Part shown: piece after piece, positions 10,002 through 37,210 of the stretch
How positions within the stretch are numbered: the first letter of the stretch is position 1
Layout: the number at the start of each line of letters is the position of its first letter
Source of the DNA: Microcoleus sp. bin38.metabat.b11b12b14.051
GTDB lineage: Bacteria; Cyanobacteriota; Cyanobacteriia; Cyanobacteriales; Microcoleaceae
Length of the DNA stretch: 64,000 bases
Assembly (NCBI RefSeq): GCF_013299165.1
Contig: NZ_JAAFKD010000030.1
Coordinates: forward strand, 1-64,000
Direction: 5' to 3'
Notes under the pieces: model-generated
The model's input: only the letters and a program-made list of their open reading frames with translations
What the model was told of the DNA's origin: nothing
Databases searched by the model: none
Program-made: the position numbers and the translations under genes

Positions 10002-10571
10002 ATGACACTTAAAACTTACCAGATATTAATTGGAGTGACGATCGCCCTAATTACAGGAATGTTTCTCGGACGTTTTGAAATCACCATCTCCAACGGTGCA
10101 AATCGCTCGATCGATTTGCCCTCAGCAGCCACCGCACTCCCCCGAACACCAGCCGTTTCGAGAGTCACCACAGCTTCGCCAAACACCGCTAAAGCGCCAA
10201 AACCCGACGTACCCCCAGAACCCGAGGAAGAAAGTAATTCCTCAATCCCTGTCAATGGCAAAGCCGCGGGCAGTTTGCGCGTCAGCAACCGCAGCGAACA
10301 CCCGGTACGAGTGGCCCTGCTGTCGAAACGGCAAGCCGAGAAATCCTACGGGAAACCTGCCCACTGGGATTTTGCGCCGGGAGAAGGCGGCGGCAAGGGA
10401 CTGATGCTATCGCTGCCGGAGGGGAAGTTACAAATCAAACAGGGAGACATTTTGGTGGTTTTTGCTCAAGATGGTTCCCGCCGCTACTGGGGGCCTTACG
10501 TCGCCGGAGAGACAGCCTCGCCTGCTTGGAATGGCACAGCCGCAGAATGGCAGTTAACTGTGCGGCATTGA
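10002..10571 (+). CDS. Membrane-anchored protein of unknown function
   Basis: A 189-aa protein from the ATG at 10002. An ATG at 9957 would add 15 residues; neither has a good ribosome site, and 10002 places the hydrophobic segment at the N-terminus. Residues 6-24 (QILIGVTIALITGMFLGRF) are a signal anchor. A Pro/Ala/Thr/Glu-rich linker follows (about 40-85). The C-terminal ~100 residues look folded (AGSLRVSNRSEHPVRVALLS, FAPGEGGGKGLMLSLP, GDILVVFAQDGSRRYWGPYV). They are probably periplasmic and have the look of a small beta domain. The family is not recognised. Confidence 0.7.
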   Translation: MTLKTYQILIGVTIALITGMFLGRFEITISNGANRSIDLPSAATALPRTPAVSRVTTASPNTAKAPKPDVPPEPEEESNSSIPVNGKAAGSLRVSNRSEHPVRVALLSKRQAEKSYGKPAHWDFAPGEGGGKGLMLSLPEGKLQIKQGDILVVFAQDGSRRYWGPYVAGETASPAWNGTAAEWQLTVRH

Positions 10572-26288: not shown

Positions 26289-26343
26289 ATCTTAAGTCAG
26301 GGTTAAGGACTACAGCATTAGTGTCAACTTAAGCAATATATGT

Positions 26344-26367
26344 AAGAAAGGGCGAGATCCCTTTCTT
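26344..26367. terminator. Short hairpin, possible terminator
   Basis: AAGAAAGGG (26344-26352) pairs with CCCTTTCTT (26359-26367) around a 6-nt loop. It lies between the convergent protease and retropepsin-like genes and could serve either strand. Confidence 0.45.
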
Positions 26368-26390
26368 TCGCTGGGGCGATTCATGAAGAG

Positions 26391-26522
26391 GGATAGCTAA
26401 GCTTCACGCCCCTGTGTGCAATCATCGCCTTTTGAAATGGTGGAAATGGATAAAATTGTAAGTGGGAAAAGAGGTTGGGGTGACACGAGTGTTAACTGAA
26501 TATGTAGGAAAGGGCGATCGCG
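26391..26522. repeat. ~130-bp direct repeat, copy 1 of 3
   Basis: Starts GGATAGCTAAGCTTCACGCC and runs through TTTGAAATGGTGGAAATGG, GGGAAAAGAGGTTGGGGTGA and GAATATGTAGGAAAGGGCGATCG. Near-identical copies lie at 27337-27468 and 28661-28788. It sits just before the retropepsin-like pair. Confidence 0.9.
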
Positions 26523-26570
26523 CTTTCTGTTGGTGGGGCGATCGCATTGAAAAGACTGTGCAGTCTCTCT

Positions 26571-26990
26571 TCATTTCTGTATTGGGTAAACCTCAAAAGC
26601 TAACTCATGACGAAAAAAACAGACATTAAACTCCGCAAAAAAGTTGAGGTGTCCGAGGATTACAGGCGCGTCTGTCGATAGACTCCAAGCAAATGCAAGT
26701 AAAATCGGCGAAAATTGAGCAACTGTACCCGAAATCACCAATCCTCGTGCCTCGCTGCTAGCCAAATTCCCGCTCAACTGAATAGGAACTGTTTGTTCTT
26801 CCCATATTGCCCCTAGTTGTATACCAATCTCATAGGGTAGGACATTGACACTCGCGCCTGTATCCAACAATGCCATTACTTCTACAGAGTTGCTGCCGTT
26901 AGAGAGTGTGATGGGCAAATATGGGAGAATGCTCGATCGACCGAGGGTATCAATTCGTTCTGTAAATGCAAATCTTTGACCATTAAGCAT
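26571..26990 (-). CDS. Retropepsin-like aspartic protease
   Basis: A 139-aa protein with the retroviral-type aspartyl protease motif LLDTGASVNVLP (about 41-52 from the ATG at 26990) and a later strand VILGHLNFF in place of the ILGR-type motif. A single-domain chain would need to dimerise to form an active site. The ATG at 26990 is chosen because AGGA lies 8 nt upstream and it overlaps the stop of the upstream gene by 8 bp. An in-frame TTG at 27011 is less likely. Small proteins of this type are frequent in cyanobacterial genomes. Substrate unknown. Confidence 0.8.
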   Translation of the reverse strand: MLNGQRFAFTERIDTLGRSSILPYLPITLSNGSNSVEVMALLDTGASVNVLPYEIGIQLGAIWEEQTVPIQLSGNLASSEARGLVISGTVAQFSPILLAFAWSLSTDAPVILGHLNFFAEFNVCFFRHELAFEVYPIQK

Positions 26991-27243
26991 TGGCTGATTC
27001 CTGGGCGGCAACTAGAAGTCCTGATAATGCTTTCAGTCCTTCACTATCCGCCTGTGGAGACCAGATAGTGGCAGGGGTTGATGCTAGTTGATTCAGGAGT
27101 AAATTTTTTGAATCACTATCTTCAGCAGACTCTAGGCTACACCCTTCTTCCTTGGCAACTGCAAGTAGAAGAAAGTGAATGAGTCGCAGTTTATCAAGAT
27201 GAGAGAGTTGGCTAACTGTGGGTAAAAGTTCGCTGAGAGGCAT
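26983..27243 (-). CDS. 86-aa partner protein of the retropepsin-like protease
   Basis: A small protein whose stop codon overlaps the protease start by 8 bp, so the two are probably translationally coupled. The N-terminal half is helical (LLPTVSQLSHLDKLRLIHFLLLAVAKEEG), reminiscent of the short helical partner that precedes many small cyanobacterial protease or toxin genes. The C-terminal half is Ser/Ala-rich (TPATIWSPQADSEGLKALSG). No DNA-binding motif is seen. It could be a substrate, regulator or antitoxin-like partner. Confidence 0.75.
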   Translation of the reverse strand: MPLSELLPTVSQLSHLDKLRLIHFLLLAVAKEEGCSLESAEDSDSKNLLLNQLASTPATIWSPQADSEGLKALSGLLVAAQESANA

Positions 27244-27336
27244 ATCGTTTGTTTAAGATGATACGTCTAGTTTAGTCTCCTTTCCTTACGTTCTAAGGAT
27301 AATCGCCCTTTTGTCTGCTAGGGCGATCGCCCTACG

Positions 27337-27468
27337 GGATAGCTACGCTTCACGCCCTCCGCGCAATCATGGCACTTTGAAATGGTGGAAATGGATAAAA
27401 TTGTAAGTGGGAAAAGAGGTTGGGGTGACACGAGTGTTAACTGAATATGTAGGAAAGGGCGATCGCGC
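27337..27468. repeat. ~130-bp direct repeat, copy 2 of 3
   Basis: The last ~105 bp are virtually identical to copy 1. It lies between the retropepsin-like pair and the nucleotidyltransferase-like/XRE pair. The gene-free stretch 27244-27580 contains little else apart from HIP1-type palindromes. Confidence 0.9.
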
Positions 27469-27580
27469 AACTCTTCCATTGCATTGAGACGAGTCTGCTG
27501 TGAGGATACTTGTGAGCGATCGAGATAAATATGATAATATTAAGAAACGAACAATAAATTTGTGACAAGAGTGTGAAAGA

Positions 27581-28027
27581 GTGATTCCAGAATTCGATGA
27601 AAACGGCAATCTACCACCAGGAGTTCATGTTTGTGAATGGGAGGAGTTTAATGAAAAATTTGGTACAAATTATAAAAGAGAACGGATGATAGAAGGATTG
27701 CTACTGGCAATGACTCAATTAAAAGAATCAGGCTGTAGGACTATTTATATTAATGGTAGTTTTGTGACCAGCGAACCAGAACCTAACGATTTTGATGCTT
27801 GTTACGATCGCGAAACTGTAGACATGAATCATCTGAGAGTTAATGCTCCTAGATTGTTCAATTATGCCGATCGGAATGCCCAAAAAGCCAAGTATAGAGG
27901 GGAGATTTTTCCCTCCGACCAACCTGTAGGTAATTACGGCGATAATTCTTTTGAGTTTTTTCAAAAGGATAGAAATAAAAACAAGAAAGGAATCATAGCT
28001 ATAGATATAATGAGGTGGGAACCATGA
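27581..28027 (+). CDS. Nucleotidyltransferase-like protein (DUF6932-like)
   Basis: A 148-aa protein with a GTG start. The stretch YINGSFVTSEPEPNDFDACYD (about 58-78) matches the GSx(n)DxD catalytic pattern of minimal nucleotidyltransferases. The protein is acidic, with aromatic residues near the end (FEFFQKDRNKNKKGIIAIDI). The downstream XRE gene starts inside its stop codon (ATGA), so the two are co-translated. The combination resembles toxin-antitoxin or anti-phage modules, in which the nucleotidyltransferase may modify a tRNA or a partner protein; that function is inferred. Confidence 0.75.
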   Translation: MIPEFDENGNLPPGVHVCEWEEFNEKFGTNYKRERMIEGLLLAMTQLKESGCRTIYINGSFVTSEPEPNDFDACYDRETVDMNHLRVNAPRLFNYADRNAQKAKYRGEIFPSDQPVGNYGDNSFEFFQKDRNKNKKGIIAIDIMRWEP

Positions 28028-28542
28028 TTAAAGATGAATTTCAGTATGAAGTCAGTAAGGAATGGGTAGCAAAGTTCACAAAAACTCTAGCAGCGATGGA
28101 GCGGGATGAAGAAGCAAAAAGAAAAGATTTTCTGAAATGGGATGCAGGGCGAGGTGCTGTGCAGTGTCACGTAGATAAGTTAGAAGCAGAAATAGCGGAA
28201 TATGAAAGATTGATGAATTGTGACAAAAGTCAGTCAATTAAAATTACCGTTGAAAATTTAACAGAGTTGCCATTTGCTTTGATAAAAGCTCGGATGGCAG
28301 CCAAAATCACGCAGCAAGAACTAGCCGAAATTATAGGAATTGACCAGGAGCGAATTACGCAGTGTGAGGATAAGAATTATCAATGTGCTAGTTTTGTGGA
28401 AATTCTTGAAGTTAGCGCGGCTTTGGGTGTGGAGTTTAAAACTGCTGTGATGGAGGTGGATTTTGGGGAAATAGAAATTGGCAAAAAAATTGCGGAAAAA
28501 CGACTCAAAAAAAGAATGAAGATGGCAAGTAAAGTATCTTAA
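28024..28542 (+). CDS. XRE-family helix-turn-helix protein
   Basis: A 172-aa protein starting at ATG 28024, with GAGGTGGGAACC just upstream, overlapping the preceding stop codon by 4 bp. Residues 1-80 form a charged helical region (EWVAKFTKTLAAMERDEEAK, VDKLEAEIAEYERLMNC). An HTH_XRE domain follows (about 87-140: IKARMAAKITQQELAEIIGI, QCASFVEILEVSAALGVEF), then a basic tail (KRLKKRMKMASKVS). It probably binds the promoter of its own operon and may be the antitoxin or regulator of the nucleotidyltransferase-like protein. Confidence 0.82.
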   Translation: MIKDEFQYEVSKEWVAKFTKTLAAMERDEEAKRKDFLKWDAGRGAVQCHVDKLEAEIAEYERLMNCDKSQSIKITVENLTELPFALIKARMAAKITQQELAEIIGIDQERITQCEDKNYQCASFVEILEVSAALGVEFKTAVMEVDFGEIEIGKKIAEKRLKKRMKMASKVS

Positions 28543-28595
28543 ACAAACGCTCTTGATTGTGGAGGGCGATCGCTGTTGTTTGAAAAGAAGAAGAG

Positions 28596-28614
28596 GGGCG
28601 ATCGCCCTTTTTTT
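28596..28614 (+). terminator. HIP1-palindrome terminator-like hairpin
   Basis: The palindrome GGGCGATCGCCC (28596-28607) is followed by seven T residues. It lies 53 bp after the XRE stop codon. The stem is short, so termination is plausible but not certain. Confidence 0.5.
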
Positions 28615-28660
28615 GCTGGGGCGATCGCTCATGAGAACAAACAAAGGGCGATCGCCCTAC

Positions 28661-28788
28661 GGAATGGCTACGCTTCACGCCCTCTGTGCGATCATCACCC
28701 TTTGAAATGGTGGAAATGGCTCGGATTGTCAGTGGAAAGAGAGGTTGGGCGACATGAGGGTTAATGGAATATGTAGGAAAGGGCGATG
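28661..28788. repeat. ~130-bp direct repeat, copy 3 of 3
   Basis: A more diverged copy of 26391-26522, ending GAATATGTAGGAAAGGGCGATG. It lies just after the XRE gene. The remainder of 28543-28902 holds HIP1 palindromes and a GCCTTCGGCCTGCTTCGC-type dispersed repeat. Confidence 0.85.
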
Positions 28789-28902
28789 CCTTCGGCCTGC
28801 TTCGCTTGTGCCCGTCAGAGTGAACTATGGGATAAAGTATTGAAAAACTAGCTAACCTATATAATTCGGATTCCTATTTAAAAAATGTCCGAAGTATTGC
28901 CC

Positions 28903-29655
28903 TTAAAACTTTAGTAATAATCTAACAGACATCAAGAAGCAAACAGTAACTACAACTGGTCGAATCAAAGCAACTCCTTTCTCCGTGACCATTTTTGCAC
29001 CTATGTATGATCCGATGATTTGACCAACAATCATTACCATAGCAACCCCCCAATAAATCTTCCCAAATAGCACAAAATAAACTAACGCTGAAAAATTACT
29101 GGTAAAATTGTGTATTTTAGCATTGGCTGTTGCTTTAGATAAACTATAACCACATAAAACAACAAATGCTAGAGCCATAAATGTTCCAGTTCCGGGACCG
29201 AAAAAACCGTCATAGAATCCTAAAACAGGGGCGATAAAAGCAGAAAATATTATATATGAAATTCGTGGCTCTCGATCGACATTCTCAACCGTGGGAGACA
29301 AAAGAAAGTATAAACCCATTAGGATCAACAAAATTGGTAGAATTGTTTTTAAAACCTCAGAATTAATCTGTAATACCAGCCATCCACCAACAGCCGATCC
29401 AATGAATGTCATAAAAATTGATAATTTAATTTTATTCAAATCAAATGATCCTTTCCTTAGAAAATATATGGATGCAACTAAAGTTCCGCTGCTTCCTTGA
29501 ACTTTGTTGGTTGCTAACGTTACTGCTGGCGGTATACCAACTGTTAACATTGCAGGTATGGTTATTAGTCCGCCACCACCGGCGATCGTATCTACCCAAC
29601 CAGCAATTATTGCCGCTACAAATAATTTCAATGCAATTTCAATACTAAGTTCCAT
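28903..29655 (-). CDS. TauE/SafE (TSUP) family membrane exporter
   Basis: A 250-aa membrane protein with about seven to eight hydrophobic segments. The N-terminal repeat AGWVDTIAGGGGLITIPAML and TLATNKVQGSSGTLVAS, and the second-half motif GFYDGFFGPGTGTFMALAFV, are TSUP hallmarks. Relatives move sulfite, sulfoacetate or other organosulfur anions. Its ATG lies inside the end of the upstream oxygenase gene (11-bp overlap), so it is the last gene of an apparent operon with a 2OG oxygenase and a cysteine dioxygenase-like protein. Export of sulfite or a sulfinate product fits this context but is inferred. Confidence 0.88.
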   Translation of the reverse strand: MELSIEIALKLFVAAIIAGWVDTIAGGGGLITIPAMLTVGIPPAVTLATNKVQGSSGTLVASIYFLRKGSFDLNKIKLSIFMTFIGSAVGGWLVLQINSEVLKTILPILLILMGLYFLLSPTVENVDREPRISYIIFSAFIAPVLGFYDGFFGPGTGTFMALAFVVLCGYSLSKATANAKIHNFTSNFSALVYFVLFGKIYWGVAMVMIVGQIIGSYIGAKMVTEKGVALIRPVVVTVCFLMSVRLLLKF

Positions 29656-30919
29656 TTAGATAACTCTCCAAGAAGTTTTTTTTACTATCTCTATATCTGC
29701 TTACAACATATTGTCTACAAAGCATTCTTCTAGTATGAGAATAATTACCAATTTGTATATGATATTCAGATTCATCTAGCTCCCCTCTTCCATGTGTAAC
29801 ATTCGTTTGCTGTGAATAGCAAGAATTGGGGATAAATAACACTTTTGAGGAAGTCAGAAGAACTTCATGTACAGGCATTGATTTAACAGCCAATAAAAAA
29901 TTATTGAATAGATTTTCCTCTTTATTATTGTGTCCTACATAAATCATCCTACCTTCCGCAGCATTAATACAAGTTCCCAAAATATTTCCAGATGAATCCA
30001 TATTTATGGGGTTTGTTATGTTGCCCACATAACCAGAAATTTCACCGTCAGCCGGCCCTGCTATATGTGCAATAGGCATTTTAGATAAGCATAGTAATTG
30101 CTCTTTTGTAAAACCTATATTTTGCATATGCTCTTGTAACTGGCTAGGCATCCCGATATGTGTTTTAGTATTTAAATTTACAATTCCACTCAAAATAGTT
30201 GCATCTACTCGTAAATATTTTCTACAAAGTACCTCACTTACAATTGTATCTTCAGTTTTAAGCAATCTCCGTGCAACTGTTTGAATATTTGTATTAAACT
30301 TATCAAGTTTTTTTATTAAATCATTTCTTGTACAGAAATCATTGTAAACAGTCGCATCACTATGCTGAAAGAATTTGCCACCACCTGTACTAGCTCCTAC
30401 TTTTCTCAAAAAATTATCATCCTTCGGAACAGGAGAGATTAGATGAAACCGATTTCCTCCTCCATGTTCTGAAGGGTGAATAGTGCTATCATGATTCATT
30501 AATATTATCATACACCAAGAAAACCATTCGGTAAAAAAATATTTTTTCATTCTATCCTTCTCGTCACTCCCATAATTAAAACCTCTCTTACTATTAGTGG
30601 AAAGTAATGAATTTGTCGGTTCTTCTGGAGTATTGTCAATTAAAAAAACAGGTATATTTTTCCCCATATTTGCAAGATTTATGAGATATAATAATTTGTA
30701 TATTTCGACATCTTTATTTGCATAGTAGCTTTTAATTAATAATTCAAGAACTTTATATGCAAAGTCATAAGCAATATTTTCTCTGCAAAAATACGGGTTC
30801 TGGTTTGCTAGATTTAACGTTATATACTCAGTTATTCTAGCTTTGATTTCATTGGGAATTTTTATTTCAATAATTACTTTCTCTAGAGTTGGTAGCTCCA
30901 TAGGTTGTAAGTCAAACAT
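29645..30919 (-). CDS. TauD/clavaminate-synthase-like Fe(II)/2-oxoglutarate oxygenase
   Basis: A 424-aa protein with the facial-triad pattern of the TauD/TfdA superfamily: H186 and D188 in FFQHSDATVYNDF, distal H376 in NVTHGRGEL, and the 2OG-binding arginine region RRMLCRQYVVSR (R397/R398/R402). It is longer than TauD (about 280-300 aa) because of an N-terminal helical region of about 120 residues. In this it resembles amino-acid hydroxylases such as clavaminate synthase or asparagine oxygenase. AAGGA precedes the ATG by 8 nt. It follows the cysteine dioxygenase-like gene by 63 bp and overlaps the TSUP gene. A substrate related to cysteine sulfinate, hypotaurine or taurine is suggested by context only. 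Confidence 0.72.
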   Translation of the reverse strand: MFDLQPMELPTLEKVIIEIKIPNEIKARITEYITLNLANQNPYFCRENIAYDFAYKVLELLIKSYYANKDVEIYKLLYLINLANMGKNIPVFLIDNTPEEPTNSLLSTNSKRGFNYGSDEKDRMKKYFFTEWFSWCMIILMNHDSTIHPSEHGGGNRFHLISPVPKDDNFLRKVGASTGGGKFFQHSDATVYNDFCTRNDLIKKLDKFNTNIQTVARRLLKTEDTIVSEVLCRKYLRVDATILSGIVNLNTKTHIGMPSQLQEHMQNIGFTKEQLLCLSKMPIAHIAGPADGEISGYVGNITNPINMDSSGNILGTCINAAEGRMIYVGHNNKEENLFNNFLLAVKSMPVHEVLLTSSKVLFIPNSCYSQQTNVTHGRGELDESEYHIQIGNYSHTRRMLCRQYVVSRYRDSKKNFLESYLNGT

Positions 30920-30982
30920 ATTATCTATCCTTTCAGTAAGCTTTATAGGTTTAGCATATTTTGTATGTAATCGTTCAACCCC

Positions 30983-31489
30983 TTATTCAAAAAAATGTAA
31001 AGCTGGTTTGTAAGAGATAGAGGTATCCATATAAGGAATATATAAATGAAGAGAAACAGAGTAGTCAGAATTTACATTGAGAATTTCATGAATTCCTAAT
31101 TTGTTGTTTATGTGTGATATGTCAAATTGTACTATTGTTTTAGAAGAGACTTTTACTAAATCATCTATATTTATTGCTTCAGTTTTTTGATTATTTGAAA
31201 ATATGTAACGATTTTCGCTTAGCTTTCCATTTAAGCAAACCATTATACATTCTGAATCACCATGATCGTGAATTGCTGATTGTTGGCAATTCATCCAAGA
31301 TATTAAAATTAGTTCAAATTCATCAGTCCTAATTATTGAGTTTCTCGTATATCCATTTTTTTGAAACTGTATATATGAACTAAAGTCAATATCAGAAAAG
31401 CTAGTGTTTTTCATCACATCAAGATAATCATTCAAAACCCAGCATTTTTTGAGTTGTATCAAAAATGAATTCAAGTCTGGATTGTGCAT
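30983..31489 (-). CDS. Cysteine dioxygenase-like cupin
   Basis: A 168-aa protein aligning by eye with mammalian cysteine dioxygenase. YTRN holds R49 (equivalent of substrate-binding R60). The metal ligands are H74 and H76 in SAIHDHGDSEC and H134 in LGIHEIL. C81 matches the cross-linking C93 and Y150 in SLHLYIP matches Y157. The enzyme would oxidise cysteine with O2 to cysteine sulfinic acid. Many bacterial homologues lack the Cys partner, so the apparent Cys-Tyr pair is notable. It is the first gene of an AT-rich three-gene operon with the 2OG oxygenase and TSUP exporter. No clear ribosome site precedes the ATG. Confidence 0.85.
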   Translation of the reverse strand: MHNPDLNSFLIQLKKCWVLNDYLDVMKNTSFSDIDFSSYIQFQKNGYTRNSIIRTDEFELILISWMNCQQSAIHDHGDSECIMVCLNGKLSENRYIFSNNQKTEAINIDDLVKVSSKTIVQFDISHINNKLGIHEILNVNSDYSVSLHLYIPYMDTSISYKPALHFFE

Positions 31490-31697
31490 TAGTCAACTAT
31501 ATAAGGCACTACTGTTATCAAATCAATAGCTCCTACTTTACTTGTAAATTAAAGGTTTGTCTAGCCCAAAATGTTATATTTTGTTGGCAGTTTTGTCTGC
31601 TACTTCAACTCGCCTTATGTAAAAATGTTGGTAAATGCCAGAAAATGTTGGAAAAAGTTAGGTATAATACTAAAAATCACAATATCTATGATGTTGC

Positions 31698-33047
31698 ATG
31701 AATCTTGAGGAAGTGTTAAAAATGGCTGACGATCTGATGTTTGCCAAAACTGGTAAGCACCTCGATGACTTACAAGAGGCGATTTTGCGGGGAAGCATAC
31801 AAGGTGAGAAATACACCAAAATTGCGGAGGAGATTCACTGTAACGAGAGTTATGTCAGGGATATTGGCTCAAAATTATGGCAAATACTTTCAGAGGAATT
31901 AGGCGAAGAGGTCAGGAAGTCCAATTTACGGTCTACAATGGGAAGGTTTATATTTGAAAATGTGTCTAATTTTGAAAATGTAGCAATTAGTAGTTTCAAC
32001 ATTTGTGGAGAAGCTAGACACCCACCAAACATATCAAACTCACACCCACCAAATCAAGAAACATCCCATCAAGATTTAAGCGAGATGCCAGAATTAGGTG
32101 CTTTCTTCGATCGCACTCCCGAACTCAAAACCCTCACAACCTCGATTCTACAACAAAACAGCAGCCTCATAGCCCTCACCGGCGGACTCGGCATCGGCAA
32201 AACCACACTCGCAGTGCAACTCGTCCAACAAATCAAAGACGAGTTTGAATACGTCATTTGGTGCAACTTCGACACATCCCCCACCCTCCCGGAATTTGAA
32301 GCCAACCTAATCCAGTTTTTCTCCCAGTCAGAAAAGCAAGATTCACCTACAACCAACCAGAAAGCATTACCCCTAATAAAATATTTACAAAAACATCGCT
32401 GCTTAGTAGTCTTAGATGACATTCACAACCTATTCAGCAGCGGCGAATTAGCAGGAAAATATAAACCGGGATACGAAGAATATCGCTCTTTATTCAAACA
32501 AATACAAAAAATATCCCATCAAAGTTGCTTCCTGCTCATCGGTTGGGAACAACCCAGAGAAGTTACTCAAATTAAAAGCCAAAATACACACATTAACACC
32601 TTACAACTCAAAGGTTTAGACATCGCAGCCACACGGGAAATACTCAGAGATTATGGATTAGCAGACATCGACAACTACTCAGCACTGATTCAGCGCTACC
32701 AAGGCAATCCCCTCTGGTTAAAAAGCGTCGCGACTCTGATGCAAGAGTTGGGCGGATGCGTGACAGAGTTATTACCAGATGATACCATATTGTTGCCGGA
32801 AGATTTGAAAGATGTTTTACAGCAGCAGTGCGATCGCCTGTCCGAACTCGAAAAACAAGTCCTCTCCTTATTAGCGAAGGCAAGCGATTCAATTAACCTC
32901 ACCCAACTGCTAGAAAATAGCCGAATTCCCGCATCGGATTTGGTAAATGCGCTGCAATCTTTATCGCGGCGCTGTTTGATAGAACAACAAGGAAATTTTT
33001 ACACGATTTCACCTGTACTGAGGCAATATGCGATCGCAACAATGTAA
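31698..33047 (+). CDS. NB-ARC STAND ATPase with vWA-MoxR-associated N-terminal HTH-like domain
   Basis: A 449-aa signal-transduction ATPase. Residues 1-85 (MNLEEVLKMADDLMFAKTG, HLDDLQEAILRGS, KYTKIAEEIHCNESYVRDIG) match the N-terminal helix-turn-helix found on many cyanobacterial NB-ARC proteins. A linker leads to the P-loop GGLGIGKTTL (about 160-169), Walker B CLVVLDDI (about 235-242), NB-ARC helical parts (GNPLWLKSVATLM) and a winged-helix-like end. No WD40, TPR or effector domain follows, so it is a minimal form or relies on a partner. It is divergent from the cysteine dioxygenase operon; a TATAAT lies at 31663-31668. Confidence 0.82.
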   Translation: MNLEEVLKMADDLMFAKTGKHLDDLQEAILRGSIQGEKYTKIAEEIHCNESYVRDIGSKLWQILSEELGEEVRKSNLRSTMGRFIFENVSNFENVAISSFNICGEARHPPNISNSHPPNQETSHQDLSEMPELGAFFDRTPELKTLTTSILQQNSSLIALTGGLGIGKTTLAVQLVQQIKDEFEYVIWCNFDTSPTLPEFEANLIQFFSQSEKQDSPTTNQKALPLIKYLQKHRCLVVLDDIHNLFSSGELAGKYKPGYEEYRSLFKQIQKISHQSCFLLIGWEQPREVTQIKSQNTHINTLQLKGLDIAATREILRDYGLADIDNYSALIQRYQGNPLWLKSVATLMQELGGCVTELLPDDTILLPEDLKDVLQQQCDRLSELEKQVLSLLAKASDSINLTQLLENSRIPASDLVNALQSLSRRCLIEQQGNFYTISPVLRQYAIATM

Positions 33048-33059
33048 TTTAGGTACATA

Positions 33060-33177
33060 ATACCAAATCTGGGTATCATACCCTTTATATAAATTCTCCG
33101 TAATTCTCAGAATCCATGCGATTGCGACTCACAGCGAACAATCACAATAAACGGGGTTACAAACCCTGATTTGGTAT
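33060..33177. repeat. 118-bp inverted-repeat element (ATACCAAATC ends)
   Basis: The left end ATACCAAATCTGGG and right end CCCTGATTTGGTAT are inverted with one mismatch. Inside is GGGTATCATACCC. A related start occurs at 46564. Non-coding, probably MITE-like. Confidence 0.65.
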
Positions 33178-33280
33178 AAGTTGTAGGTGCGCCACTATCG
33201 AAAATCACTAAATAAAGATCGACAATCTCATAGATCCGCACCTTACTATTACTAATTCATAAAAAAAATCCCAAAATCCT

Positions 33281-33467
33281 GTAGGGGCGGGTTCGCCAAC
33301 CATTCATGGTAAGAATGAACAATATTATAAACCCGCCCCCGCCCACCAACAATAAAAATGTACTATTAATTTATTGTAAAATGTTGATGTAAACAATGGC
33401 GGAGACAGAGGGCGGGTTTATGAGATTGTTTGTGGGTTTCATCGATGGTTGGTGAACCCGCCCCTAC
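33281..33467. repeat. 187-bp inverted-repeat element (GTAGGGGCGGG ends)
   Basis: The left end GTAGGGGCGGGTTCGCCAAC pairs with the right end GTTGGTGAACCCGCCCCTAC with one mismatch. Internal AAACCCGCCC / GGGCGGGTTT also pair. It has the shape of a MITE and fills the gap before the membrane-protein gene. Confidence 0.7.
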
Positions 33468-33523
33468 CATATTCAGGGTAATCGATCGGACACGAGATAA
33501 AATCTAAAATATAAAATCGACTG

Positions 33524-35263
33524 ATGTTCATAGCCCGCTTACACAAATTTCTAACTGCGACTGTGGATGAAAAATCCCGATCGCACACAATATTCTGGTT
33601 GATGCTGAGCTTGACATTTGCCGCAGTTTATGGGTTGTTAGCAATCAAGCAAGCTTTCAGCGCCGAGTATGTGGTGCAAGACGATGCGAGACAGCACGTT
33701 TTCTGGATGATGCGGTTTGTCGATCGGCAATTATTCCCCAATGATTTCATTGCTAACTACTTTCAATCAGTCGCCCCCACAGGATACAGCACGCTCTACA
33801 AAATAGCAGCAACAATCGGAATTCACCCGCTATTTCTTCACAAAATATTACCGCTATTTCTCGGCTTAATTTCCACCTATTACTGTTTTGGGCTTTGCCT
33901 AGAAATGCTGCCAGTACCGATGACTGGATTTATCGCATCTTTGCTGTTAAATCAGCATATGTGGATGACTGATGATTTGGCTTCCACAACGCCCAGAGCT
34001 TTTATCTATCCGATATTTCTCGGTTTTTTATATTATTTATCGCGGAGTTCGTTGCTGCCCTGTTTGGGAGCGATCGCCCTAATTGGATTATTCTACCCTC
34101 CCTACGCCTTAGTTGCTGCCGGAATTTTAGTTTTGCGCCTGCTAAGCTGGGAAAACGGCTGTTTGCGCTTGTCGGGCGATCGCACAAATTACCTATTTTG
34201 CAGTACAGGTTTGGGACTAATCTTTTTAGTAATGCTCCCCTATGCCTTAGATAAATCGGAATTTGGCCCGACTTATACCGCAGCCGAAGCCAAGCAAATG
34301 CCGGTATTTGCGCCAAACGGCAGAAATGCTTTTTTTCGTCCAAATCCCAAGGATTATTGGCTGACTGGTAGGGGAAGTGGGATGTTTCCCAAGTCGCTGT
34401 TTACGCCTGTAACTCACTGTGTCGGGCTGTTTTTGCCGCTGATTTTGCTGTGGAGGCGATCGGCTTTTCCGTTAGCCAGTCGAATTAATAGCAAAATCTG
34501 GCTGTTGCTTCAGCTATTTTTAGCATCCTTGACGATGTTTTTGGCTGCTCACGCCACCATTTTTAAGCTGTATCAGCCTGGAAGGTATACTGCGTATAGC
34601 TTGCGGTTTATTGTTGTGTTCGTGAGCGCGATCGCCCTGACGTTAATTATCGATGGCGTCGGTAACTGGGCATCAACAACCGAAACAAAATTTAATTTAA
34701 AAAAGCTAGTCGCACTAATTACCACAGCCATAATTGCGATCGTAGTTGTGCTTTATCCCTGCTTGGTAGAAGACTTTCCCGATGTCGGGTATGTAGCAGG
34801 TGAAATGCCCGCTTTATACAAGTTTTTTCAGCAACAACCAAAAGATATCATGATTGCTTCCATTGCGCCCGAGGCGGACAATTTGCCAACTTTTAGTCAG
34901 CGTTCGGTTTTGGTAGCAAAGGAATATGCAGTGCCTTATCAGAAAGGCTACTACAGCGAATTTTTACGACGAATCAATGATTTAATTCGCGCTCAATATA
35001 CGCCCGATCGCGCTGTATTGCAAAACTTTATTAACAAGTATAAAATTGATTTTTTTATGCTCAATCTCAATGCCTTGACTCTTCAGTACGTCGAGGATTA
35101 CGGCTGGATCGATGACTTTGATGCCACACCGGAGACGATGCTCGCTCTCAAACAAGGGAAAATTCCCGCGCTAGCTTCGGCAATGACAAGTTGTGCTGTT
35201 TTTCAGAATGAACTTGTAGTAGTTTTAAATGCCTCTTGTATTGTGAAAGTGACCAGAAATTAA
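33524..35263 (+). CDS. Polytopic membrane protein, GT-C glycosyltransferase-like
   Basis: A 579-aa protein with about 10-12 hydrophobic helices. The first extracytoplasmic loop after helix 1 carries an acidic motif (YVVQDDARQHVFWMMRFVDR) in the position where GT-C enzymes hold their catalytic Asp residues. Later loops contain DDLASTTPRAFIYP and GRYTAYSLRFIVVF. The C-terminal ~170 residues are soluble (YKFFQQQPKDIMIASIAPEA, YKIDFFMLNLNAL). A role in surface-glycan or polysaccharide assembly is plausible from the fold, but no specific family is recognised. The gene ends directly before a large repeat array. Confidence 0.68.
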   Translation: MFIARLHKFLTATVDEKSRSHTIFWLMLSLTFAAVYGLLAIKQAFSAEYVVQDDARQHVFWMMRFVDRQLFPNDFIANYFQSVAPTGYSTLYKIAATIGIHPLFLHKILPLFLGLISTYYCFGLCLEMLPVPMTGFIASLLLNQHMWMTDDLASTTPRAFIYPIFLGFLYYLSRSSLLPCLGAIALIGLFYPPYALVAAGILVLRLLSWENGCLRLSGDRTNYLFCSTGLGLIFLVMLPYALDKSEFGPTYTAAEAKQMPVFAPNGRNAFFRPNPKDYWLTGRGSGMFPKSLFTPVTHCVGLFLPLILLWRRSAFPLASRINSKIWLLLQLFLASLTMFLAAHATIFKLYQPGRYTAYSLRFIVVFVSAIALTLIIDGVGNWASTTETKFNLKKLVALITTAIIAIVVVLYPCLVEDFPDVGYVAGEMPALYKFFQQQPKDIMIASIAPEADNLPTFSQRSVLVAKEYAVPYQKGYYSEFLRRINDLIRAQYTPDRAVLQNFINKYKIDFFMLNLNALTLQYVEDYGWIDDFDATPETMLALKQGKIPALASAMTSCAVFQNELVVVLNASCIVKVTRN

Positions 35264-35290
35264 GTTGTTGAGTGCGAAATATTCAGCAAT

Positions 35291-37210
35291 TAAATCGTAG
35301 GATGTGTCGCCTTGAAAAGTTTTGCCACTACTTGAAGATATTGATAGCGACGCACCACACAGCTTAATGCGGTACAAATACAGATTGTAGGGTGTGTCGC
35401 TGTGAGAAGAATTGCCACTAATTGAAGAGATTGATGGCGACGCACCACACAGTTTAATGCGGTACAAATACTGATTGTAGGGTGTGTCGCTGTGAGAAGA
35501 TTTGCCACTAATTGAAGATATTGATAGCGACGCACCACACAGTTTAATGCGGTACAAATACTGATTGTAGGGTGTGTCGCTGTGATAATTGTTGCCACTA
35601 ATTGAAGATATTGATGGCGACGCACCACACAGTTTAATGCGATCTGAATACAGATTGTAGGGTGTGTCGCTGTGAGAAGATTTGCCACTAATTGAAGATA
35701 TTGATAGCGACGCACCACACAGTTTAATGCGGTACAAATACTGATTGTAGGGTGTGTCGCTGTGATAATTGTTGCCACTAATTGAAGATATTGATGGCGA
35801 CGCACCACACAGTTTAATGCGATCTGAATACAGATTGTAGGGTGTGTCGCCTTGAAAAGTTTTGCCACTACTTGAAGATATTGATGGCGACGCACCACAC
35901 AGCTTAAGGTGCGTCGCTATGGGATTTGTCGGCACTATTTGAGACTATTTGAGGGCGACACACCCTACAGTTTAAGGTGCTGTGAAAAGTTTTGCCACTA
36001 ATTGAAGATATTGATAGCGACGCACCACACAGTTTAAGGTGCGTCGCTATGGGATTTATCGGCACTATTTGAGACTATTTGAGGGCGACACACCCTACAG
36101 TTTAAGGTGCTTTGAGAAGTTTTGCCACTACTTGAAGATATTGATAGCGACGCACCACACAGTTTAAGGTGCGTCGCTATGGGATTTGTCGGCACTATTT
36201 GAGACTATTTGAGGGCGACACACCCTACAGTTTAAGGTGCTTTGATAATTGGCCACTACTTGAAGATATTGATGGCGATGCACCACTGATTGTAGGGTGT
36301 GTCGCTGTGATAATTCTTGCCACTACTTGAAGATATTGATGGCGACGCACCAAGGATTGTAGGGTGTGTCGCTGTGAGAAGTTTTGCCACTACTTGAAGA
36401 TATTGATAGCGACGCACCACACAGTTTAAGGTGCGTCGCTATGGGATTTGTCGGCACTATTTGAGACTATTTGAGGGCGACACACCCTACAGTTTAAGGT
36501 GCTTTGAGAATTTGCTACTACTTGAAGATATTGATAGCGAGGCACCACACAGTTTAAGGTGCGTCGCTATGGGATTTGTCCGCACTATTTGAGACTATTT
36601 GAGGGCGACACACCCTACAGTTTAAGGTGCTTTGATAATTCTTGCCACTACTTGAAGATATTGATAGCGAGGCACCACACAGTTTAAGGTGCGTCGCTAT
36701 GGGATTTGTCCGCACTATTTGAGACTATTTGAGGGCGACACACCCTACAGTTTAAGGTGCTTTGATAATTCTTGCCACTACTTGAAGATATTGATAGCGA
36801 GGCACCACACAGTTTAAGGTGCGTCGCTATGGGATTTGTCCGCACTATTTGAGACTATTTGAGGGCGACACACCCTACAGTTTAAGGTGCTTTGATAATT
36901 CTTGCCACTAATTGAAGATATTGATGGCGACGCACCACACAGTTTAAGGTGCGTCGCTATGGGATTTGTCGGCACTATTTGAGACTATTTGAGGGCGACA
37001 CACCCTACAGTTTAAGGTGCTTTGATAATTCTTGCCACTACTTGAAGATATTGATGGCGATGCACCAATGATTGTAGGGTGTGTCGCTGTGAGAAGTTTT
37101 GCCAATAATTGAAGATATTGATAGCGACGCACCACACAGTTTAAGTGGGTTTTGTAAAATTAAAAAATACTACTTGAAGATATTGATGGCGACGCAGCAC
37201 ACAGTTTAAG
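35291..37210. repeat. ~1.9-kb compound tandem array with 90-bp then 130-bp units
   Basis: From about 35291 to 35910 a 90-bp unit (landmark GATTGTAGGGTGTGTCGC) recurs at 35381, 35471, 35561, 35651, 35741 and 35831. From about 35911 to 37030 a 130-bp unit (landmark GGGATTTGTC or GGGATTTATC before CGGCACTATTTGAG) recurs at 35921, 36051, 36181, 36442, 36571, 36701, 36831 and 36961. Units contain GTAGGGTGTGTCGC / GCGACGCACCAC inverted arms. Two minus-strand frames stay open across the 90-bp part only because 90 is divisible by three. There is no support for a protein. Confidence 0.93.

Follow-up and report, generated by a model that had tools for sequence, protein, structure and literature searches.

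The first 64,000 nucleotides of contig NZ_JAAFKD010000030.1 of the cyanobacterium Microcoleus sp. bin38.metabat.b11b12b14.051 (hereafter the window) carry three neighbouring minus-strand genes encoding a cupin, an oxygenase and a TauE/SafE (TSUP) transporter (Table 1). This trio is a real, compact set of genes of known kinds around an orphan oxygenase, and it lies on a mobile-looking island. We tentatively read it, giving this reading slightly less than an even chance, as an accessory operon for cysteine oxidation that spreads horizontally and would work in three steps. The cupin would dioxygenate L-cysteine to L-cysteine sulfinate, a step for which the grounds are strong. The middle protein, of the clavaminate-synthase-like (CSL) type, may then hydroxylate a free L-alpha-amino acid; the product of the cupin or a close derivative would be the simplest substrate, and another amino acid is nearly as likely. 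Hydroxylation by CSL enzymes falls mostly at C-beta, as a habit of the family. Finally, the TSUP protein would export a small anion, most simply sulfite, which could arise from cysteine sulfinate in two ways, through transamination by housekeeping enzymes or through hydroxylation of the C-beta beside the sulfur.

What is new here is the orphan oxygenase and the combination of genes, and the pathway itself is only proposed. If the middle enzyme uses the product of the first, cysteine would be turned into sulfite by a new route, and a family known to hydroxylate amino acids would gain a new kind of chemistry. Even otherwise, the oxygenase is so divergent that neither Pfam nor NCBIfam names it, and it belongs to a cassette that is apparently mobile between species.

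Organization of the trio

The trio had been described in a first-pass annotation as three tightly packed, AT-rich genes, and the open reading frames (ORFs) and their spacing were found exactly as given there. The cupin and oxygenase genes are separated by 63 bp (30920-30982), and the start of the TSUP gene overlaps the stop of the oxygenase gene by 11 bp (29645-29655); a ribosome-binding-like GGAGAG for the TSUP gene sits within the oxygenase ORF. The G+C content (GC) is indeed low, rising from 0.280 in the cupin gene through 0.319 in the oxygenase gene to 0.363 in the exporter gene, with values at third codon positions (GC3) of 0.23, 0.23 and 0.27. The NB-ARC, proA and M48 peptidase genes and the gene at 33.5 kb lie well above this (GC 0.43-0.48, GC3 0.44-0.47), and the DUF6932 and helix-turn-helix (HTH) genes of the island have intermediate GC3 (0.30 and 0.34). 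Because the genes are packed, the start of the third overlaps the stop of the second and low GC and GC3 are common to all three, it is likely that the trio is transcribed as a single operon.

The cupin as a cysteine dioxygenase

The cupin matches PF05995 (CDO_I) with an expectation value (E) of 6e-26 and 91.3 bits (cut-off 23), and it is the sole CDO_I match within its own genome. Compared with rat cysteine dioxygenase (CDO; E 1.5e-17), its residues Y47, R49, H74, H76, C81, H134, H148 and Y150 align with Y58, R60, H86, H88, C93, H140, H155 and Y157, respectively. Thus, H74, H76 and H134 are the predicted iron histidines, R49 the predicted carboxylate arginine, and H148 and Y150 part of the predicted Ser-His-Tyr motif, while C81 aligns with the mammalian Cys that is cross-linked to Tyr. 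The AlphaFold2 model reached a predicted local distance difference test score (pLDDT) of 82, and its top PDB matches were the rat, mouse, human and B. subtilis enzymes. The cupin core, the three-His iron site and the equivalents of R60, Y157, the Ser-His-Tyr motif and C93 are shared with rat CDO (4yyo/4z82) and B. subtilis CDO (4qm9), although identity to the rat protein is only about 30%. According to the excerpts consulted of two papers (PMC10966181, PMC8050391), Arg60 and Tyr157 are tied to substrate specificity, Arg-type enzymes are distinguished from Gln-type ones, and the Ser-His-Tyr motif belongs to CDO. Because the active site is complete and the predicted fold is matched, the cupin is very probably an Arg-type CDO, predicted to convert L-cysteine into L-cysteine sulfinate; the first-pass family assignment was borne out by the profile match, the active-site residues and the predicted fold.

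Relatives were sought by scanning genome contigs from about 85,000 species, each represented by a single genome, for two conserved peptides. This pattern scan returned 28 relatives of the cupin, the closest 36% identical. In an alignment of the cupin with 21 of these 28 loci (22 sequences), Y47, R49, H74, H76, H134, H148 and Y150 are invariant, some of these columns being partly fixed by the search itself, whose patterns held YTRN or IHDH. No match to the cupin was found in a sample of 28 other genomes of the genus. CDO-like cupins do occur in genomes of the same family (L007, L009-L012); their iron site reads H-P-H, not H-D-H, and they lack the Cys of the cross-link.

The middle protein as a probable CSL-type oxygenase

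The 424-aa middle protein had no Pfam or NCBIfam match up to E 1 and no meaningful sequence match in the PDB, where the 68-residue stretch around its HxD gave only chance matches. The first-pass annotation had called it a TauD/clavaminate-synthase-like oxygenase. Of this label the TauD half fell, since PF02668 did not match up to E 1 and identity as a taurine dioxygenase was rejected; the own genome likewise held no PF02668 match up to E 0.01. The CSL half stood on ordered motifs. Profiles place the protein nowhere, neither within nor outside the Fe(II)/2-oxoglutarate (2OG) oxygenases, and the motifs place it inside them; a placement outside by profile, which the first-pass annotation had named as a refutation, did not result.

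A reference set was obtained by searching cyanobacteria with an alignment of CSL segments, which matched 7 of 244 genomes, six of them with full-length frames (L112-L117). All four of the reference proteins scanned, out of these six, match PF02668 (E 2e-16 to 2e-8), unlike the oxygenase. In the ordered-motif test, eight CSL motif blocks were scored in order within spacing limits. The oxygenase scored 48.1 (z 6.4), a value reached by none of 2000 shuffles (mean 14.6, standard deviation 5.2, maximum 38.7) and by none of 570 controls, namely 569 ORFs from unrelated loci and the reversed protein. Seven of the eight blocks are positive (the strand before P, E-H-G-G...P-V, H-x-D, G-x-x-x-x-P, L...I-P-N, H-G-R and R-x-x-x-R) and the helix block scores -1.5. 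TauD-profile proteins reach up to 51 in this test, those within the top 40 spanning 27-51. With five blocks, none of 1000 shuffles reached the oxygenase, and 2 of 635 ORFs not tagged as TauD did so, one being a PF02668 protein (L061) and the other the oxygenase's own copy. Moreover, MAFFT put the oxygenase in register with the CSL proteins over most of its length, the lid excepted, and hhalign aligned its C-terminal HGR region correctly.

From these motifs, H186, D188 and H376 are the candidate iron ligands, and R398 and R402 are predicted, by analogy with VioC, to be the 2OG and substrate-carboxylate arginines. The protein thus has in common with the CSL family (IPR014503: VioC, OrfP, AsnO, CmnC, KDO1/KDO5, CAS) the order and spacing of the motif blocks, the HxD/E...H triad and R-x-x-x-R. 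It differs in having no significant sequence match, a long insertion in the lid region, insertions on both sides of the distal His and a shortened stretch after HxD.

Some results speak against CSL membership. A plain hidden Markov model (HMM) of the six cyanobacterial CSL proteins gave the oxygenase E 130 and rank 345 of 1335, phmmer lent no support, 2 of 300 shuffles matched the hhalign score, as did 10 of 363 ORFs, a copy of the oxygenase itself among them, and the spacing limits of the motif test were chosen after the protein was seen. An AlphaFold2 model from the single sequence had a mean pLDDT of 33.7 and so speaks neither for nor against the double-stranded beta-helix fold of the family, and in an alignment with two viral CSL proteins both halves could not be aligned correctly at once. 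We infer that the middle protein probably works like a CSL Fe(II)/2OG oxygenase without being filed as a member by profile.

The substrates of CSL enzymes are amino acids or amino-acid derivatives, over which a variable lid closes (PMC6224419). Hydroxylation of an amino acid is therefore favoured over a taurine-type enzyme, and the taurine or sulfonate role that the first-pass annotation had drawn from TauD is disfavoured, while the alternative it had named, amino-acid hydroxylation by the second enzyme, is at least as good. It is possible, with a probability well short of even, that the substrate of the middle enzyme is an ordinary amino acid (Arg, Lys, Asn or the like) and not cysteine sulfinate; its hydroxylation would then belong to the making of a small natural product, and the cupin and the exporter would serve that product or its sulfur. 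The CSL relatives of known structure oxygenate Arg, Asn, Lys or clavams, which fits such an activity. In the lid, D239-A-T241 aligns with the CSL D-x-S by MAFFT, and D308 is a second acidic residue nearby; if this alignment is right, D239 and D308 would line the side-chain pocket, a hint that would suit a cationic or amide side chain and disfavour the anionic sulfinate. However, 1121 of 2000 shuffles reach the score of the lid block taken by itself, so the acidic pocket has no support from the score. Moreover, eight proteins encoded from 26.6 to 33.0 kb were scanned, and apart from the trio they include no peptide ligase, pyridoxal-phosphate enzyme or other biosynthetic enzyme.

The exporter and the proposed fate of the sulfur

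The exporter matches PF01925 (TauE) over its full length (profile 1-237 of 237; E 2e-50, 171.9 bits, cut-off 32.6), as the TauE/SafE (TSUP, DUF81) exporters of sulfite and organosulfonates do, and the family named for it in the first-pass annotation therefore stands. The closest NCBIfam model, the uncharacterised PRK10621, gave 300.8 bits, below its cut-off of 383. Within the TSUP family the substrate is not predictable from sequence, which applies to this exporter too, and the gene product is presumed to export an anion.

Cysteine sulfinate yields sulfite after transamination. Since this is so and TauE-type proteins are proposed sulfite exporters, the first and third genes already make sense together as cysteine oxidation with sulfite disposal. 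A comparable pairing occurs in Advenella, in whose catabolism of mercaptosuccinate and 3,3'-dithiodipropionate the portion of PMC5373536 consulted places a CDO homologue and a TauE proposed to export sulfite. That system differs from the trio in its thiol substrates, in that the same portion describes no CSL oxygenase, and in locus tags suggesting that tauE lies elsewhere in the genome. Among the open-licence papers listed for CDO, TSUP/TauE exporters, cyanobacteria and 2OG gene clusters, no title or abstract opening described the trio.

The place of the middle enzyme in such a scheme is where readings diverge. The first-pass annotation had proposed a full pathway in which cysteine becomes sulfinate, the middle enzyme oxidises it further or cleaves its C-S bond, and the TSUP protein exports sulfite or a sulfonate. 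We regard this as a plausible minority reading, though an unlikely one. The packing of the genes and the identity of the CDO agree with it, and by analogy with the chemistry of taurine dioxygenase the middle enzyme, acting on sulfinate, could release sulfur by hydroxylating the sulfur-bearing C-beta. Against it stand the tentative acidic pocket, the retention of the TSUP gene where the enzymes are gone (see below) and the transamination route, by which sulfinate gives sulfite with no need for a second oxygenase. A bolder form, which we consider quite improbable, is that the middle protein founds a new CSL branch: it would hydroxylate C-beta of cysteine sulfinate or cysteate, the product would collapse, and the TSUP protein would export the sulfur oxyanion, so that an oxygenase-driven cysteine desulfurisation would travel in a cassette mobile among cyanobacteria.

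Distribution of the three genes

Relatives of the oxygenase were looked for in 1486 genome searches in all, in samples that overlap and each cover part of their group. No intact relative was present in 386 genomes of the phylum or 388 of the order, which gave only the own gene and two 3' remnants. None appeared in the 28 genomes carrying a related CDO, in plasmids or phages, or in viral contigs, the last being searched by peptide pattern; a peptide-pattern scan of genome contigs gave nine pattern matches, none of them a relative, and the own genome held only the own gene. Short, weak matches came from six further genomes of the order, from 4 of 369 genomes of a gammaproteobacterial class and from 2 of 314 of a planctomycete phylum. 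Both planctomycete matches were inspected and are unrelated proteins; for the other ten, length and E (0.002 to 0.05) were the only criteria.

The DNA of the exporter gene matched in 4 of 58 other relatives: G402 (99.1% identity), G039 (94.3%), G441 of another family (72%) and G070 (30 bp only). In G402 and G039, which with the own genome represent three sister species, a short 3' remnant of the oxygenase gene lies upstream of the TSUP gene and is followed by pieces of NB-ARC genes, most of the oxygenase being missing. As to the co-occurrence across genomes that the first-pass annotation had offered as a check, the exporter stands with traces of the oxygenase in two sister species, the oxygenase persisting there only as a fragment and the cupin giving no match, which speaks against tight coupling.

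Several of these observations weigh against a coupled operon for cysteine oxidation. The full trio was found in no other genome searched, and the operon thus rests on one instance. No match to the cupin was detected in G402 or G039, where the TSUP gene is intact while the oxygenase is fragmentary, which weakens a tight coupling, and the 14 kb retrieved from G441 contained no gene related to either oxygenase. The promoter scan found 6 sites against a shuffle mean of 14.9, that is, fewer than in shuffles, and neither it nor the terminator scan was informative. Finally, among 33 other CDO loci (L021-L025 and L027-L054; 32 distinct, as L021 and L042 are one contig, and many on short contigs), phmmer detected a relative of the oxygenase at none. 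Likewise, no ORF of at least 200 aa at these loci reached E 0.05 with the six-protein CSL HMM. A TSUP gene occurs at one of the 33, as a half-gene near the CDO on a Vampirovibrio contig; at this locus (L038, 1146-3398) the CDO gene, a class-V-aminotransferase-like gene (named by eye) and the TSUP half-gene are neighbours.

Because the exporter survives without the enzymes, it may be used independently, and the TSUP gene is probably useful without the other two. Taken further, the TSUP gene could stand on its own, a two-gene CDO-oxygenase cassette having landed next to it by chance, and the overlap would then lead to co-transcription without a shared pathway. The gene has indeed stayed intact in genomes that lack the CDO and most of the oxygenase, with ratios of nonsynonymous to synonymous substitution rates of 0.09-0.23 among the three species (the value for the own genome and G402 resting on seven changes), and it matches with at least 94% identity in only 2 of the 58 other genomes, in each on a contig different from the one with the right-flank gene and the island site. 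On the other hand, both copies retain the 3' end of the oxygenase gene, so the pair predates the loss, and low GC3 is common to the trio; we consider a chance association somewhat unlikely. That the ORF of the oxygenase is an orphan in decay or without function is very improbable. The mere fragments in the two sister species and the lack of an intact relative in the collections searched would agree with decay, but the frame is intact over 424 codons at 32% GC, retains the catalytic motifs and contains the ribosome-binding-like sequence of the TSUP gene.

The island and the probable mobility of the cassette

The trio lies on an island of about 7 kb (26.3-33.5 kb). Six relatives were picked from genomes matching the right-flank gene, and by blastn of the flanks four of them (G395, G398, G401 and G402) lack the island as a block and have its flanking genes next to each other, about 200-530 bp apart; the other two (G354 and G039) carry other island parts at that site.

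Table 1. Position of the trio, of the island and of the divergent neighbouring gene in the window
Feature	Position	Strand	Remarks
Cupin gene (gene 1)	30983-31489	-	168 aa; predicted Arg-type cysteine dioxygenase
Middle oxygenase gene (gene 2)	29645-30919	-	424 aa; orphan, divergent, predicted clavaminate-synthase-like (CSL) Fe(II)/2OG oxygenase
Exporter gene (gene 3)	28903-29655	-	250 aa; TauE/SafE (TSUP) transporter, presumed anion exporter
Variable island with trio	26289-33522	.	blastn of flanks
NB-ARC ATPase gene	31698-33047	+	divergent from trio; PF00931 E 1e-13

The TSUP gene of G402 is 99.1% identical to that of the window, as against only 81-86% in the long flank matches of G402, which suggests recent interspecies exchange. 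The most fitting view of the cassette is that of mobile accessory cargo, with the exporter its only survivor in two of the three genomes where traces of it occur. Since the exporter was kept where the rest was lost, these genomes offer a clean test case for the gain and loss of accessory sulfur metabolism.

The remnants themselves were compared with the exporter gene. Identity to the window is 94.0% for the remnant and 99.1% for the TSUP gene in G402, and 96.6% and 94.3% in G039; a faster decay of the remnants is not clear, since the two genomes point in opposite ways. Both remnants are broken by insertions resembling miniature inverted-repeat transposable elements (L018 about 10200-10313, L019 about 10023-10131), with the same right-hand junction, common ends (TAGCAATCC) and different interiors. 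The insertion is common to G402 and G039, yet the TSUP gene of G402 shows 99.1% identity to that of the window and only 95.0% to that of G039, a conflict for which recombination, or transfer more than once, would account.

Pieces of NB-ARC genes adjoin the trio or its remnants in three genomes, and the matching site in G354 and G039 contains further pieces (L132, L134), which suggests that recombination between dispersed NB-ARC copies moves the cargo. At 26571-27011 and 27581-28542 the island also holds a gene matching PDC-M52B, a candidate defence family of PADLOC (E 6e-79), and a gene matching DUF6932/PDC-M63A (E 1.6e-14), the latter overlapping the HTH gene. With these and the NB-ARC gene, the island appears, by its gene content, to be a variable region resembling those of candidate defence genes. 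Beside it, at 35225-37210, lies an array of near-identical repeats whose translated units read LCGASPSISS.

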